From Microbacterium sp. LWH11-1.2 (lineage in GTDB: Bacteria > Actinomycetota > Actinomycetes > Actinomycetales > Microbacteriaceae), in contig NZ_CP151636.1 of the NCBI RefSeq assembly GCF_038397745.1, forward strand, positions 1,240,001 through 1,304,000: a stretch of 64,000 nt of DNA, read 5' to 3'. The stretch's first letter is position 1, and every line of letters starts with the position of its first letter. Below the pieces are notes generated by a model, which was given only the letters and a program-made list of their open reading frames with translations, was not told where the DNA came from and made no database searches. The position numbers were made by a program, and so were the translations under genes. Positions 37,030 through 42,832 of the stretch are shown here, one piece after another.

Positions 37030-38067
37030 ATGCCGGTCACCCTCGATCTCGACAGCCTCCCCGCGCTGGCAACGGGGTTCGCGCTGCTCGGCTCGGGCGG
37101 TGGCGGCGGGACGACCATGCTCGAGCTCGTGCTGCGGGATTCCCCGGACTGGCCGATCACCCTGCATGACGTCGACGAGCTGGATCCCGACCTCCCGGTC
37201 CTCGGGGCCGCTTTCGTCGGTTCGACCATCCTCCTGGGCGAGCGGCTCCCGGGAACCGCCCCCTTCGCTCGGCTCATCGCCGCGGCGGAGCGCTGGTTGG
37301 GATATCGCGTTCCGGTGGTCTGCTCGCTCGAGGGCGGCGGACTCAACGGCCTCGCGTCGTTCACGCTGGCCGGCGAGCGGATCATCGTCGACGCCGATCT
37401 GACCGGCCGGGCCGTTCCGGCGCTCGACCAGATGTCGCTCCTGGTCGACGGCGTCCCGAACATCATCGTCACGTGCGACACGGGTGCCGGCGGGGTCGCC
37501 CTCGTCGAGACCGACCGCGCGCTCGACATCGAACGCATCGTGAGGGCGGCGACCGTCCAGGCGGGCGGTGCCGGCGGCATGGTCTTCGCGGGCTTCACCG
37601 TCGGGTCCCTGCGCGAGCACGCGATCGTCGGCAATGCCGCGCACGCGCTGCGGCTGGGAAAGGCGTTCCTCGGCGCCGAGACCGGGCCGCTCGATCATCT
37701 GGCCGGGACGCTGGGCGGGCGGCTGCTCGCGGAGGGGCGCATCACCGCGATCGAGATCGACGAGCGGGATCCGCACGTCACCGTCTTCGGAATCGAGGGG
37801 AGCGCGGGCGAGGTGCACAGACTCGTGGCCCGGTCCGAGAGCCTCGCGCTGATGACCGACGGAAGGCTCGAGGCCGCAGCCCCGGATCTGGTGGTCGTGC
37901 TCGACGCGATCTCGCGCGACATCCTCGAGGTCCCCAGTCTGTCGATGGGCCGGTACGTCGCCGTGATGCAGCTGGATGGACCGGCGTGGTGGTCGCACTC
38001 CACCGCGCGCCTTCGCCATGTGGTCCCCTCGGTCTACGGGCTGGATGAATTGGACGGCCTCTCATGA
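37030..38067 (+). CDS. DUF917 protein, copy 3 (divergent)
   Basis: A 345-residue member of the same family with a degenerate glycine motif (LGSGGGGGTTML instead of LGTGGGGDPYIG) and GGGLNG in place of GGINS. It is clearly less like copies 1 and 2 than they are to each other, suggesting a different role, such as a structural subunit or different substrate. The stop overlaps the PucR start by four bases. Confidence 0.8.
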   Translation: MPVTLDLDSLPALATGFALLGSGGGGGTTMLELVLRDSPDWPITLHDVDELDPDLPVLGAAFVGSTILLGERLPGTAPFARLIAAAERWLGYRVPVVCSLEGGGLNGLASFTLAGERIIVDADLTGRAVPALDQMSLLVDGVPNIIVTCDTGAGGVALVETDRALDIERIVRAATVQAGGAGGMVFAGFTVGSLREHAIVGNAAHALRLGKAFLGAETGPLDHLAGTLGGRLLAEGRITAIEIDERDPHVTVFGIEGSAGEVHRLVARSESLALMTDGRLEAAAPDLVVVLDAISRDILEVPSLSMGRYVAVMQLDGPAWWSHSTARLRHVVPSVYGLDELDGLS

Positions 38068-39572
38068 GCGACGCCCTCCTGCTGAGCGCCCTGCTCGCCC
38101 ATCCCGAGAACGGCGGCGTCCGTGCGATCGCCGGACCGGAGGATGTCGAGTGGACCGGCGTCGTCGTGGAGTCGGACGAGACCCTGCTGCCGTCGGACGG
38201 TGCCGGGCGCCTGGTCATCCTCACCGAGTCGCCGCCCGACCGCTCCTGGCAGCAGGACGCGCTCATCCGCCGCACGCGCGATCGCGGCTTCCGGGCACTC
38301 GCGGTGCCCCGCGCCGAGGGGTTCGGCCCGGGTACCCGCGCGCTCGCCGCGCGGCTCGGGTTCACCGTGCTGCACGTCGATCGACCGATCCTGCTGGCGA
38401 AGGCCTGCTGGCAGCTGGTCGAAGCGCGCGATGCGCTCGCCCTGCACTACGTGCGGAAGGTCGCGCAGTCGATCGAGTACCACGCGGACAGCCTTGCCGA
38501 CCTGCTCCGCCACCTCTCCACGAGCGTGCGGCACGGCGTCGCTCTGCTCGATGCCGAGGGCGTGCTGCTCGAATCCGGAGGAGCACTGGCCCCGGACGTG
38601 CACGCGTCGATCGATTTCGCCCCGTGGCTCGACATCGTGCGTGCGCCGGGCGGCTCCGCGGCCTCCGTGCGTGTCGACAGTCCGAGCAGAGAGGGTCTGC
38701 GACTGGCGTTCTTCGGCGAAGGCCTCGACGAGCGCCAGGTCACCGCGCTCGCGGTCGCCGCCGAGGTGGCGATGCCCGCCGTCGCCGCCCGGATCCTGAT
38801 CGACGAGGTGGAGGAGGTCAACGACGCCTCGGTGTCGTCGGGAGTGCTGCGGGATTTCGTCGATCTGCGCGGCACACCGGATCTCGATGTGGAGCGCCGC
38901 ATGCTCGAGCGCGGATGGCGGACGAGCGGATACCACCTCGGCTTCCGGCTCATCGGGCGCACCCGTGTGGACGCGCTCCAGCTCCTCCGTTTCGTGATCG
39001 GCGAGCTCGGTCGCATCTCCGTCGATTCGCACGCGACCACGGGTGGTCGCGGCGTGACCGGCTGGCTGACCTTCACCGAGCCGCCGGCGCCGCCGCAGAT
39101 CGAGCAGTGCGTGGCGGCCCTGCGGGAGCTCCACGTCGCCGCCCGACGCTCGTTCAACGTCGCGACCGGGGTCGGGTCGGTGGCGAACGGCTCCGCGGGG
39201 CTCACGACATCGTTGAGCGAGGCGTCCGATGCTTCGAAGATCGCCGTGAACCGCTCGGCCACCGGCTGGTTCGTGCGTGTCGACGGACTCGGGCTCGAAC
39301 GGCTCCTGCTCGCATGGACCGGCAACGACACGTTCGTCCCGGCGGCGCAGTCGCTCCTCGCGCCGTTGCAGGAGGGACGCGGCGAGCTGTTGACGACGCT
39401 GTCGGCGTACCTGGATCATGAGTCGGCCCTCGCTCCGACCGCGGCCGCCCTCGGTCTCCACCGGAACACCGTCGCCAGTCGCATCCATCGCGCACAGGAG
39501 CTGCTCGGCGTGGACATGAGCGATCCCGAGGTGCGGTTGGCCCTGCACCTCGCGTGCCGCGCGGTGCGCTGA
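38064..39572 (+). CDS. PucR-family transcriptional regulator
   Basis: A 502-residue regulator. An N-terminal PucR-like sensor (~1-130), a middle GGDEF-like/CdaR region and a C-terminal helix-turn-helix (LAPTAAALGLHRNTVASRIHR, ~463-483) are visible. PucR/CdaR proteins activate purine, allantoin or sugar-acid catabolism. Being the last gene of the operon, it probably controls the NCS1-HyuA-DUF917 genes in response to the substrate. Confidence 0.85.
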   Translation: MSDALLLSALLAHPENGGVRAIAGPEDVEWTGVVVESDETLLPSDGAGRLVILTESPPDRSWQQDALIRRTRDRGFRALAVPRAEGFGPGTRALAARLGFTVLHVDRPILLAKACWQLVEARDALALHYVRKVAQSIEYHADSLADLLRHLSTSVRHGVALLDAEGVLLESGGALAPDVHASIDFAPWLDIVRAPGGSAASVRVDSPSREGLRLAFFGEGLDERQVTALAVAAEVAMPAVAARILIDEVEEVNDASVSSGVLRDFVDLRGTPDLDVERRMLERGWRTSGYHLGFRLIGRTRVDALQLLRFVIGELGRISVDSHATTGGRGVTGWLTFTEPPAPPQIEQCVAALRELHVAARRSFNVATGVGSVANGSAGLTTSLSEASDASKIAVNRSATGWFVRVDGLGLERLLLAWTGNDTFVPAAQSLLAPLQEGRGELLTTLSAYLDHESALAPTAAALGLHRNTVASRIHRAQELLGVDMSDPEVRLALHLACRAVR

Positions 39573-39696
39573 CGGCTCGCACCCGACTCGCGGAAACCCG
39601 ACGGAGGTGGCGACCTGCGTCTATGGAGCGCGTCTCGGCAGCGGGTCACACTGGGGGCGGCGAGCGCACGGGGCCTCGCCTGCGTGAGGAGACGAC

Positions 39697-39864
39697 ATGT
39701 CCGACGAGAAGAAGATCCCTGCCGACGCCGAAGCCAGCGCGACAGCGTCCGCCGAACTGACCGACGAGCAGCTCGCCGAGGTCGCCGGCGGCAACGGCCA
39801 TCCGATTCCGGGGCGGCACATGGACAAAGCCGAGATCGAGAAGGCCCTCCGCGGCGGGAATTAG
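39697..39864 (+). CDS. Double-glycine-leader peptide 1 (bacteriocin/RiPP-like precursor)
   Basis: A 55-residue peptide. The leader begins MSDEKKI and ends in ELTDEQLAEVAGG (residues 20-32), matching the hydrophobic ELxxxxLxxVxGG pattern of leaders cut by C39-peptidase ABC exporters. The putative core after Gly32 has 23 residues, starts NGHPIPGRH and has no Cys, Ser or Thr, so lanthionine or thiazole chemistry is excluded. It may be an unmodified bacteriocin-like or signalling peptide. Ribosome site GAGGAG. No exporter, protease or modifying enzyme is encoded in the window. Confidence 0.75.
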   Translation: MSDEKKIPADAEASATASAELTDEQLAEVAGGNGHPIPGRHMDKAEIEKALRGGN

Positions 39865-39971
39865 CGCGCCGACGCGGCAGAGGAGGCGACCTGCGTCTAT
39901 GGAGGCGGCTTCGCCGGCGGAACACACTTGTTCTGCGAGTGCACAAGGCCTCGCCTGCGTGAGGAGACGAC

Positions 39972-40145
39972 ATGTCCGACGAGAAGAAGATCGCTGCGGA
40001 AGCCCCCGCCCCCGAAGAGACGGCACCGCCAGAGCTGACCGAAGAGCAGCTCGAGCAGGTCGCCGGCGGCGGCGCCTACCCGGACCAGGGGCGCGGGGGT
40101 GGGAACATCTCCCTCGAGGAGAAGGTCCTCCGCGGCTGGAAGTAG
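39972..40145 (+). CDS. Double-glycine-leader peptide 2 (bacteriocin/RiPP-like precursor)
   Basis: A 57-residue paralogue of the preceding peptide. The leader begins MSDEKKIAAE and ends ELTEEQLEQVAGG (residues 21-33). The 24-residue core starts GAYPDQGRGGGN and ends KVLRGWK, whereas peptide 1 ends KALRGGN. The leader is closely conserved and the core diverged except for the K-x-L-R-G end. It contains one Ser, one Tyr and one Trp but no Cys. It is followed 20 bases later by the convergent ROK gene. Confidence 0.75.
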   Translation: MSDEKKIAAEAPAPEETAPPELTEEQLEQVAGGGAYPDQGRGGGNISLEEKVLRGWK

Positions 40146-40164: not shown

Positions 40165-41385
40165 CTAGGCGCGCATGCGGAGACGCTGCTCCGCGAGCCT
40201 CGGCACCGCCTGCTCGCGCGCGGCCCGGCGGGCGGTCGCGACGGCGCCGACCGACACGACCTCGGCGCCGAGCTCGGAGGCGAGGATCTCGGGTGCCGGC
40301 AGGTGCAGCTCCCCGGGGAGCACGCGGCGCGCCGCGGCCAGCACGGGCTCGACGCTCTCGGCGACGGCGCCGCACACGATGACGCGCGCCGGGTCGTACA
40401 TGCTGCCGAGCACACCGACGACGCGGGCGACCGTGCCGCCGACGCGGTCGGTGACGAGCATCGCGTCCTCGTCGCCTGACGCGGCGAGGGTCAGGACCAG
40501 TCGGGGGTCGATGCGCTCCGCCGCGACGAGGCGCCCGACCGCGCTGTCACGATCGATCTCACCGGCGTCGACGGCCGCCTGCGCGTGGTTGCGCACGGCG
40601 TACGAGAGCCCGAACGCCGAGCCGACGCCGATGATGTGGTCGAACACGACACCCTCGCCGACACCGCCGTGCGCCCCGTGCAGGACGTGGCCGTCGACGA
40701 CGACTCCGCCGCCGAAGCGCTCGCTGGCGAGCAGAGCGACGTAGTCCCGGCATCCGATCGCGGCTCCGACCGCGCCCTCGGCGATCGCGGCGAGCTGGGC
40801 GTCGTTCTTGATCTCGACGACCGGCGCCCAGTCGCGCAGGGCATCGGCGAGTCCCGGGTTGGTGCGCTCCCAGAAGCCATCAGGGTGCGGCGGTGAGATG
40901 CCGTTGCGGTCGACGGGAGCGGCGACCCCGACGCACAGGGCCAGGACCTGCTCGCGGGTCACTCCGGCTTCCGCGAGCGCCGCGCGCAGACTCTCGATGA
41001 TCGTCGCGCGCCGCTCTTCGGCGGAGTGGGTCGGGTCGACCTCGATGCGATGGTGCACGAGCGTCGTCTCGAGCGGATCGGCGACGGTCACCGCGAGATG
41101 CGTGTCGCCCGCGTCGATGCCGACGACGACGCCGAGGTCGGGGGAGAGGGAGAAGCGGCGAGCGGGGCGGCCGGAGCGGTAGCTGCCGACCGCGCGGGCG
41201 TTGGGGAGCTCGCGCAGCACCTCGGCGTCGAGCAGCGTGTCCATCGCGTCGATCGCGGTGGAGCGGGTCAACGACGTGCCCGCCATGACCTCGGTCGCCG
41301 TGAACTCGCCCGCCGCCCAGGCGAAGTCGAGCACCGCTCCGACGCTTGCGCGCCCGGTGCCGAGATCCGCCGAGACTTCTGTCAC
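40165..41385 (-). CDS. ROK-family transcriptional regulator
   Basis: A 406-residue ROK protein with an N-terminal winged helix (TATEVMAGTSLTRSTAIDAM) and a ROK kinase-like domain beginning VVGIDAGDTHLAVTVAD. The usual zinc Cys cluster (CxCGxxGCxE) is missing; the region reads GAHGGVGEG, as in other actinobacterial ROK repressors. GTG start at 41385 has AAAGG nine bases upstream. It is divergent from a sugar ABC importer and glucosidase, which it probably represses in the absence of sugar. Confidence 0.85.
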   Translation of the reverse strand: MTEVSADLGTGRASVGAVLDFAWAAGEFTATEVMAGTSLTRSTAIDAMDTLLDAEVLRELPNARAVGSYRSGRPARRFSLSPDLGVVVGIDAGDTHLAVTVADPLETTLVHHRIEVDPTHSAEERRATIIESLRAALAEAGVTREQVLALCVGVAAPVDRNGISPPHPDGFWERTNPGLADALRDWAPVVEIKNDAQLAAIAEGAVGAAIGCRDYVALLASERFGGGVVVDGHVLHGAHGGVGEGVVFDHIIGVGSAFGLSYAVRNHAQAAVDAGEIDRDSAVGRLVAAERIDPRLVLTLAASGDEDAMLVTDRVGGTVARVVGVLGSMYDPARVIVCGAVAESVEPVLAAARRVLPGELHLPAPEILASELGAEVVSVGAVATARRAAREQAVPRLAEQRLRMRA

Positions 41386-41430
41386 GCCCCTTGACCTTTC
41401 TGTCGTGCCAATGAGAGAGTACCTCTCGAC

Positions 41431-41460
41431 AGAGTAAATTCGCTCACTAGATTTAGTACG
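41431..41460. promoter_or_regulatory. AT-rich candidate ROK operator
   Basis: AGTAAAT and ATTTAGT form an imperfect inverted repeat (TAAAT at 41435-41439, ATTTA at 41451-41455) in the divergent region between the ROK gene and the importer. It is the only AT-rich stretch nearby. Confidence 0.4.
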
Positions 41461-41485
41461 CGGATATACGGGGACCGAGAGGACG

Positions 41486-42832
41486 ATGGTGTCTGAGAAA
41501 CGAACACGCGCACTGCGGACGATCGCGGGAGCCCTCGGGCTCACCCTGGTCGGAGCCGCACTCACGAGCTGTGCGGCCGGCTCGGGGGCGGAGACCATCC
41601 GCTTCACCTTCAGCAAGCGCGAGGCCATCGAGTTCATGACCGAGCTCGTCGCGGAGTACAACTCCTCGCAGGACGACGTGAAGGTCGAGATCGACACCTC
41701 GGGTGTCGACGTCGTCTCCGCCAGTTTCGTGCGGGGCAACCCGCCCGACATCATGCTCGCCAACTACAACTACGAGATCGCCCGGTTCGTGCAGCGCTGC
41801 GCCCTCACCGATCTCTCCGACACCGATGCCGCCGCCGGCATCCGCGACGACCTGCAGCCTCTGATGGACCAGTACGGCTCCTGCGAGGGCCGCACCAGCG
41901 CTCTCCCGTACTCCGTGATGGCGGCATCCGTCATCTACAACAAGGAGATCTTCGACGCGCAGGGTCTCGACGTCCCGCAGACCTGGGACGAGCTGCTCGC
42001 CGTGTGCGACCAGCTGAAGCAGGCGGGCATCGACCCGTTCTACGCCACCTTCAAGGACGACTGGACCGTCGCGCAGGGCTGGTACGACTACACGGCCGGC
42101 GGGTCGGTCGACGTGATCGACTTCTTCGACGCGCTCGCCGAAGAGGGCACGGAGGTCGGCCCCGACTCTCCGGTGTCCTTCCAGCAGGACTTCGCCGAGC
42201 CCATGGACCGGATGATGCAGCTCGCGAGCGAGTACACGAACACGGATGCCGCGAGCCGCGGCTACGGCGACGGCAACCTCGCGTTCGGCAAAGGCGAGGC
42301 GGCGATGTATCTGCAGGGCCCATGGGCCTTCAGCGAGATCGAGAAGACCGCGCCGGACCTCGACCTCGGCACCTTCCCGCTGCCGATGACCGACGACCCC
42401 GCGGACCTGGGCGTGCGGGTCAACATGGACCTCGCCGCGATGATCCCCGAGGAGTCTCGTCACCAGGAAGCCGCGCGGGACTTCCTCGAGTACCTCTACC
42501 TCCCCGAGAACATCGAGGCCTACAACGCCTCGCAGCTCGGATTCACGCCGACGACCGGTGCGCCGGCGCCGGACGATCCGCGGGTCGAGGGGATGATCGA
42601 GTACTACGACAACGGCCAGATCTACCAGGGGCCGTCGGTGCTCGTGCCCAAGACGCTCCCGATGTTCAACTACGCGCAGGCCATGGTCCTCGGCGCATCG
42701 CCCGAGTCGACGCTGCGCACGATGGACGCCGACTGGGCGCGGATCGCCTTCCGCGCACCGATACCCACCACTCAGGATTCCGCATCCGGCGAGACATCCT
42801 CATCCGGCGAGACAGAGGAGTCGACGCCATGA
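41486..42832 (+). CDS. Sugar ABC transporter substrate-binding lipoprotein
   Basis: A 448-residue protein with lipobox LTSC. Segments such as FVRGNPPDIML, YNKEIFDAQGLDVPQTWDELL and GKGEAAMYLQGPW are typical of family 1 carbohydrate-binding proteins. It should deliver an oligosaccharide to the two permeases encoded next. The tail is a low-complexity SGETSSSGETEESTP, with ATCCGGCGAGACA repeated in the DNA. Its stop overlaps the next start. An MsmK-type ATPase is absent from the operon and is presumably shared. Confidence 0.9.
   Translation: MVSEKRTRALRTIAGALGLTLVGAALTSCAAGSGAETIRFTFSKREAIEFMTELVAEYNSSQDDVKVEIDTSGVDVVSASFVRGNPPDIMLANYNYEIARFVQRCALTDLSDTDAAAGIRDDLQPLMDQYGSCEGRTSALPYSVMAASVIYNKEIFDAQGLDVPQTWDELLAVCDQLKQAGIDPFYATFKDDWTVAQGWYDYTAGGSVDVIDFFDALAEEGTEVGPDSPVSFQQDFAEPMDRMMQLASEYTNTDAASRGYGDGNLAFGKGEAAMYLQGPWAFSEIEKTAPDLDLGTFPLPMTDDPADLGVRVNMDLAAMIPEESRHQEAARDFLEYLYLPENIEAYNASQLGFTPTTGAPAPDDPRVEGMIEYYDNGQIYQGPSVLVPKTLPMFNYAQAMVLGASPESTLRTMDADWARIAFRAPIPTTQDSASGETSSSGETEESTP

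Follow-up and report, generated by a model that had tools for sequence, protein, structure and literature searches.

Two small tandem genes in Microbacterium sp. LWH11-1.2 encode precursors with double-glycine leaders, and they raise the questions of which machine exports and cuts them and whether their products are modified. The genome (G000) is one contig of 4,223,098 bases, and the stretch analyzed here, called the window, comprises 64,000 nucleotides (G000:C1:1240001-1304000). The initial annotation described tandem open reading frames (ORFs) of 55 and 57 residues with a common MSDEKKI start and double-glycine leader ends, within a repeated unit of about 275 bp that keeps an identical 20-mer some 68 bases upstream of each ATG and an identical stretch before each start. 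These descriptions were confirmed: the frames lie at 39697-39864 and 39972-40145, the unit repeats at 275-276 bp, the 20-mer GGCGACCTGCGTCTATGGAG, at 39609 and 39885, precedes the first ATG by 68 bases and the second by 67, and the identical stretches are blocks of 46 bases. After MSDEKKI, the leaders end in ELTDEQLAEVAGG (twin 1) or ELTEEQLEQVAGG (twin 2) and fit ELT[D/E]EQL..VAGG, a textbook double-glycine type with a leader end of the form L[ST]xxxLxx[VI]xGG and a short core. Leaders recognized by C39 peptidases carry hydrophobic residues at -4, -7, and -12 together with GG, and the twin 1 leader agrees with this motif. The initial annotation proposed looking for homologues in related genomes, and twins were indeed found in 3 of 366 genomes of the genus, LWH11-1.2 included; the others are TPD7012 (G238), called the same species as LWH11-1.2, and EST19A (G283), in which the GG ends are kept. 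The genes and their neighbors are as follows.

38064..39572, plus strand: flanking regulator-like gene, by appearance presumably PucR, outside the system; marks a conserved place, with the same neighbor in TPD7012 and EST19A
39672..39717, plus strand: 46-base identical block 1 by sequence comparison (ribosome site, ATG, codons 1 to 7)
39697..39864, plus strand: twin peptide 1 precursor, 55 aa, with orthologues in TPD7012 and EST19A
39697..39792, plus strand: leader of twin 1, 32 aa, ending ELTDEQLAEVAGG
39793..39861, plus strand: predicted mature peptide 1, 23 aa, free of Cys, Ser, and Thr, computed mass 2496.28 Da
39947..39992, plus strand: 46-base identical block 2 by sequence comparison (ribosome site into codon 7)
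39972..40145, plus strand: twin peptide 2 precursor, 57 aa, with orthologues in TPD7012 and EST19A and a metagenome relative, P0004
40071..40142, plus strand: predicted mature peptide 2, 24 aa, computed mass 2586.33 Da
40165..41763, minus strand: flanking gene, which we take to be ROK, outside the system; same neighbor in TPD7012 and EST19A

The genes on either side of the twins are the same in all three genomes (window; L173, L174), and no immunity gene was evident by eye among the ORFs adjoining them. The genus search returned 11 genomes at an E value of 0.01 or below, the other eight being weak matches in frames of at least 179 aa, and a twin 1 search of 58 relatives, a draw without TPD7012 and EST19A, returned LWH11-1.2 only. 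In EST19A the twin 2 frame reaches 115 aa from an upstream GTG; the ATG of MSEKKIP was taken as its start because the alignment begins there. CCTC...GAGG, at 39672-39695 and 39947-39970, may base-pair and so mask the ribosome site of each twin.

The two cores had been described as different apart from a K-x-L-R-G end. They are not unrelated: the cores can be aligned, with P, G, and LRG in common, and the twins are 55% identical over the whole peptide. The related picture of a conserved leader with a diverged core holds only in part, as the cores are related and twin 1 has a pN between species of 0.13 for both core and leader. The converse idea, that cores are more conserved than leaders, was rejected for twin 1 by the same values. 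By alignment count, core identity between LWH11-1.2 and EST19A is 16/23 for core 1 and 20/24 for core 2, with seven nonsynonymous and two synonymous changes in core 1 and four and three in core 2, counts too small for a verdict on selection.

The search for a C39 exporter that the initial annotation had proposed gave one match in the genome. The C39 peptidase domain (PF03412) occurs at 2016329-2016715, within an NHLM-type exporter about 0.73 Mb from the twins, in support of the earlier view of double-glycine secreted peptides sharing one processing machine. YcaO likewise has a single match, at 2011578-2013959, and for C39 and YcaO, both outside the window, the claim that the 64 kb encode no exporter or modifying enzyme holds. 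In TPD7012 and EST19A, ordinary ABC ATPases occur some 8 kb away from the twins (weak matches, L173 and L174). The distant cluster, at about 2.01 Mb, encodes an NHLP precursor (TIGR03793, 76.1 bits, cut-off 50.9; core FYYPQLSRPEDYGKLGKK, 2188.13 Da before modification), a YcaO cyclodehydratase (TIGR03604) fused to a leader-binding domain (TIGR03882), a SagB dehydrogenase (TIGR03605), and the NHLM exporter, which consists of HlyD (TIGR03794), a C39 ABC transporter (TIGR03796, 964 bits versus a cut-off of 853), and a second ABC protein (TIGR03797). All six exceed their NCBIfam cut-offs, and a response regulator and a histidine kinase lie on the other strand of the cluster.

Counting LWH11-1.2, YcaO was found in 6 of the 366 genus genomes (E of 1e-30) and the NHLM C39 exporter in 7 (E of 1e-100), and every genome with twins also carries the YcaO and exporter cluster. 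One genome, G342, has the NHLM exporter without a YcaO match, and among 396 genomes of the order only LWH11-1.2 gave the exporter at an E value of 1e-120. In Microbacterium rhizomatis (G188), NHLP, YcaO, and SagB (L040) lie about 0.63 Mb from the NHLM exporter and the regulator and kinase (L176) on one contig, and therefore the system can split. The NHLP cores of six clusters (L004, L037, L038, L039, L040, L041) differ, with Cys in G185, G188, and G142 and without Cys but with YPxLSxPEDY kept in LWH11-1.2, TPD7012, and EST19A.

The repeated 20-mer upstream of the twins is more than chance. In the 4.22-Mb genome it has two exact sites, those of the twins, and one more at up to three mismatches, whereas its reversed pattern has none at that threshold. 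The third site has two mismatches, lies at 2011069-2011088 (minus strand), and stands upstream of a third short double-glycine precursor, peptide 3, beside the distant cluster. The common element has the sequence GACCTGSGTCYATGG, in which a dyad, GACC-NN-SGTC, precedes YATGG, and it is shared by the twins, the NHLM exporter operon, peptide 3, and, more weakly, the NHLP precursor. The initial annotation called the twins an orphan system; this element instead links them to the NHLP/YcaO/SagB/NHLM cluster and peptide 3, 0.73 Mb away. The features concerned are as follows.

39609..39628, plus strand: 20-mer copy 1, exact, holding the operator-like dyad GACCTGCGTC plus YATGG (39612-39626); conserved in TPD7012 and EST19A
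39647..39652, plus strand: predicted -10 element CACACT of twin 1, 20 bp after the motif
39885..39904, plus strand: 20-mer copy 2, exact match, with the motif at 39888-39902
39923..39928, plus strand: predicted -10 element CACACT of twin 2
L004:4312-4491, minus strand: peptide 3, recognized by its 20-mer site and leader

The last 13 leader residues of peptide 3 are identical to those of twin 1; its core has several Ser and Thr residues, and the computed mass of the mature peptide is 3470.61 Da. Its GTG start was chosen within a longest frame of 95 aa, and it scored 13.3 bits on the NHLP model, below the cut-off of 50.9. Its stop overlaps the start of a 113-aa two-helix membrane protein (L004:3974-4315) that has no Pfam match and is a candidate immunity protein. 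Neither twin 2 nor peptide 3 gave a match when searched against plasmids. Among the best 80 of 253 loci with YcaO relatives, four had a short double-glycine frame, of which one is the EST19A peptide 3 and three look by eye like late-start NHLP tails; the scan is insensitive, because it missed peptide 3 of TPD7012 (L076).

When the degenerate motif was combined with the downstream box (RACCYRSGTCYATGG-N20-NANNNT), four exact sites were found in LWH11-1.2, before twin 1, twin 2, the exporter operon, and an LAxTG surface protein. Five further sites had one or two mismatches: a PF00144 hydrolase (one), peptide 3, the NHLP precursor (two), 1417059, and 4137396. The last two of these nine sites, at two mismatches each, have no link to the system, and 1417059 lies inside ORFs; the reversed control gave three sites at up to two mismatches in the same genome. 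The LAxTG protein (656 aa, L004:17271-19241) adjoins the cluster and has no Pfam match, and its element, exact to the degenerate motif, is kept in EST19A.

Across the genus, the exact 15-mer motif has 22 sites in 13 of the 366 genomes, and a NANNNT box lies 20 or 21 bp downstream in 18 of the 22 (all but G194, G201, G296, and G304), versus 3.2% of background positions; the sites are not independent, LWH11-1.2 and TPD7012 being one species. Twin 1, twin 2, peptide 3, and the exporter account for 12 sites, four each in LWH11-1.2, TPD7012, and EST19A. The other 10 occur one per genome: before a peptide-3-like gene in G200, before PF00144 hydrolases in G142, G189, G230, and G253, and elsewhere in G194, G201, G296, G304, and G318. 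Among the seven exporter genomes, the exact motif precedes the exporter in three, with one mismatch in G142 and two in G188. The genus search found no exact motif in G185, G188, or G342, and the 19-kb exporter locus of G342 has no site at up to two mismatches. A table of 23 sites, chosen by gene, includes the NHLP genes of G185, G188, and G142, whose upstream sites (three mismatches) have the same arrangement; because those sites were picked by position, they illustrate the pattern but are no proof of it.

One candidate for the protein that binds the element is the cluster's response regulator, which has PF00072 and PF00196 (GerE) domains and is accompanied by a HisKA_3-type kinase with eight predicted membrane helices. 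Its assignment to MadR (NF047785) was rejected (96 bits versus a cut-off of 300). In G200, G230, and G253, in which YcaO and the exporter were not found, a homologue of the regulator (88-92% identical) and its kinase are located some 1.4 kb away from the motif, and thus the motif is tied to the cluster's regulator family; the pair was not seen at the loci round the motif in the other 7 of the 10 single-site genomes. A second regulator/kinase pair (regulator 192/221 identical, kinase 71%) lies at 2.03 Mb beside the PF00144 hydrolase whose element has one mismatch. This locus, L187:4816-8501 (G000:C1:2028815-2032500), encodes a PF00144 serine hydrolase lipoprotein with the paralogous pair, and a comparable layout occurs in G200, G230, and G253. 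The arrangement points to duplication of a system that controlled the hydrolase, after which one copy took over the peptide cluster, the order of events being conjectural. With two paralogous pairs in LWH11-1.2, the twins may be controlled by one of the regulators or by both; by the company it keeps, the cluster's response regulator is the best candidate binder.

We conclude that the twins are probably distal members of one peptide-secretion regulon, which would use the cluster's C39 protein for export and cutting and would yield linear products. Secretion by the distant cluster's exporter seems most likely because the twins carry the same switch as the cluster. The NarL/GerE-type regulator, driven by the eight-helix kinase, would bind the dyad and switch peptides and exporter on together. 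The C39 domain would then cut after GG during export, and the products would leave as linear peptides of 23-24 residues, since core 1 of LWH11-1.2 has no heterocyclizable residue and the leaders lack the NHLP fold. Outside the cell, they would act alongside the cluster's azole peptide. Against this reading stand the distance of 0.73 Mb, the lack of an evident immunity gene beside the twins, and the restriction of twins to three genomes, two of one species; moreover, the second paralogous regulator/kinase pair could be the acting one. A further point against it is G200 (96% complete), which has the exact element before its peptide-3-like gene (L165:9525-9793) and no C39 match; that gene may be a relic or use another exporter, or a contig may be missing.

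Relatives of the peptides were sought more widely. A single-sequence search of 5.8 billion proteins with twin 1 returned only itself, and an eight-row profile search gave 81 matches at an E value of 1 or below, of which the 22 inspected show three families, A (the twins), B (peptide 3), and C (the G342 type). In family B, K-x-YPPW is invariant in seven sequences (K[P/S]YPPW), and one member is from Arthrobacter alpinus (P0022). In family C, six sequences share 30 invariant columns that pass through the leader end and on into the core, and the core DGAWGDE[I/V]SRLR is almost invariant. The G342 precursor, MSQDPK...ELTDEELDSIAGG-DGAWGDEISRLRNGGIT (L175:7532-7696), is the first gene of an NHLM export operon and overlaps the HlyD start, and no RiPP enzyme of known kind was found among six scanned neighboring ORFs of the 19-kb locus. 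Judged from its sequence, this locus supports the idea that NHLM exporters may carry short precursors without modification. Such conserved cores favor fixed targets or receptors over a role as ever-changing bacteriocins, with the reservation that family A comprises few sequences. No published report of these peptides was found in open-licence papers.

One way in which conserved short peptides could be coupled to a kinase is a pheromone role for the twins (or peptide 3), with export by the NHLM system, sensing by the eight-helix kinase, and autoinduction through the common operator, as in pln/blp; we regard this as possible but rather unlikely. The operator before the exporter and each twin, the membrane helices of the kinase, the short cores, and the near-invariant family C core all agree with it. 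Regulons of the pln/blp type are governed by a LytTR-type regulator, and blp is akin to pln in having the same repeats at several promoters. LWH11-1.2 resembles them in having the same site before peptides and exporter, but differs in its GerE/NarL-type regulator and HisKA_3 kinase. In pln of Lactobacillus plantarum, response regulators bind identical DNA repeats at several promoters, among them the promoter of the transport operon (PMC2714321); here, too, the element stands at several promoters including the exporter's, and binding is predicted. However, no pheromone or peptide gene was seen next to the cluster kinase, which is still 71% identical to its hydrolase-side paralogue. Moreover, in G230 and G253, where neither such peptides nor a C39 match were found, the kinase/regulator homologues adjoin a PF00144 hydrolase, so the older signal was probably a different one. 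Given this older-looking hydrolase partner of the kinase family, the twins are a little more probably antagonistic companion peptides than signals. A broader extension, which we consider speculative and improbable as a whole, is that short double-glycine peptides with fixed, unmodified cores (A, B, and C) form an actinobacterial class exported by NHLM systems, with at least one member serving as the pheromone of an eight-helix HisKA_3 kinase and NarL-type regulator and with chromosome-wide autoinduction coupling azole-peptide export to distant loci.

If the twins belong to the cluster's regulon, they might also, with low probability, be substrates of its YcaO and SagB enzymes, converted to azoles or otherwise changed in the backbone. 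Predicted co-regulation with the cluster and the leader-binding domain (TIGR03882) of the YcaO fusion would allow this, as would EST19A core 1, which has one Thr and one Ser. The initial annotation reported no Cys in either core and no Ser or Thr in peptide 1; in LWH11-1.2, core 1 lacks all three residues and core 2 has one Ser, and in EST19A that Ser is Pro and core 2 has none of these residues. Neither core, nor either EST19A orthologue, is rich in Cys, Ser, and Thr as azole-forming (TOMM) precursors are. Azoles can be excluded on compositional grounds only for LWH11-1.2 core 1 and EST19A core 2, because EST19A core 1 and peptide 3 have Ser and Thr. The twin leaders scored 13.0 and 15.2 bits on the NHLP model (TIGR03793, cut-off 50.9), and in the one case studied, an azoline-forming YcaO binds the NHLP leader as a folded domain (PMC12455567). 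The twins also fell below the cut-off of the class IIb two-peptide bacteriocin model (TIGR03949; 12.9 and 15.1 bits versus 21.5). Azole formation on the twins is thus unlikely, core 1 lacking Cys, Ser, and Thr here and the leaders lacking an NHLP domain, and the initial label of RiPP-like is, in the sense of a modified peptide, doubtful on the same two grounds.

Haft et al. (2010; PMC2887384) note that TOMM precursors are occasionally located far from the enzyme genes. The NHLP/N11P-TOMM clusters described there resemble the distant cluster in their NHLP precursor, YcaO/scaffold fusion, and TIGR03794/03796/03797 exporter. The twins and peptide 3 differ in their short leaders, which lack an NHLP domain, and in being linked by a common upstream element, and the twin cores are nearly devoid of heterocyclizable residues. 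For cyanobacteria, Wang et al. (2011; PMC3140520) class 150 of 290 precursors as "other" (not NHLP, N11P, HetP, or DUF37) and describe NHLP/N11P cores as diverse and rich in Gly, Cys, Ser, and Thr. Those clusters likewise place double-glycine precursors beside HlyD/C39 exporters, whereas the twins are actinobacterial, 0.73 Mb away, and marked by a common operator-like element.

It is very improbable that the twins are a decayed or chance duplicate of a cluster unit, left without function at a distance from it: the genes are small and occur in only 3 of 366 genomes, but in EST19A both frames remain open at the same place, with GG ends, operators, and -10-like boxes retained, and the 12 bases changed in all in the twin 2 leader leave it in frame.

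Placing the twins in the cluster's regulon bears on how such peptides are found. Genome mining that is based on clusters misses peptides far from their machine; here, a common promoter-like element connects two remote precursors to the exporter they probably use and brings a third to light. The motif, a spacing of 20-21 bp, and NANNNT together make a testable rule for secreted-peptide genes in Microbacterium. The finding suggests that NHLM exporters, known for NHLP/Nif11 products, also transport small companion peptides whose cores are conserved and perhaps unmodified.
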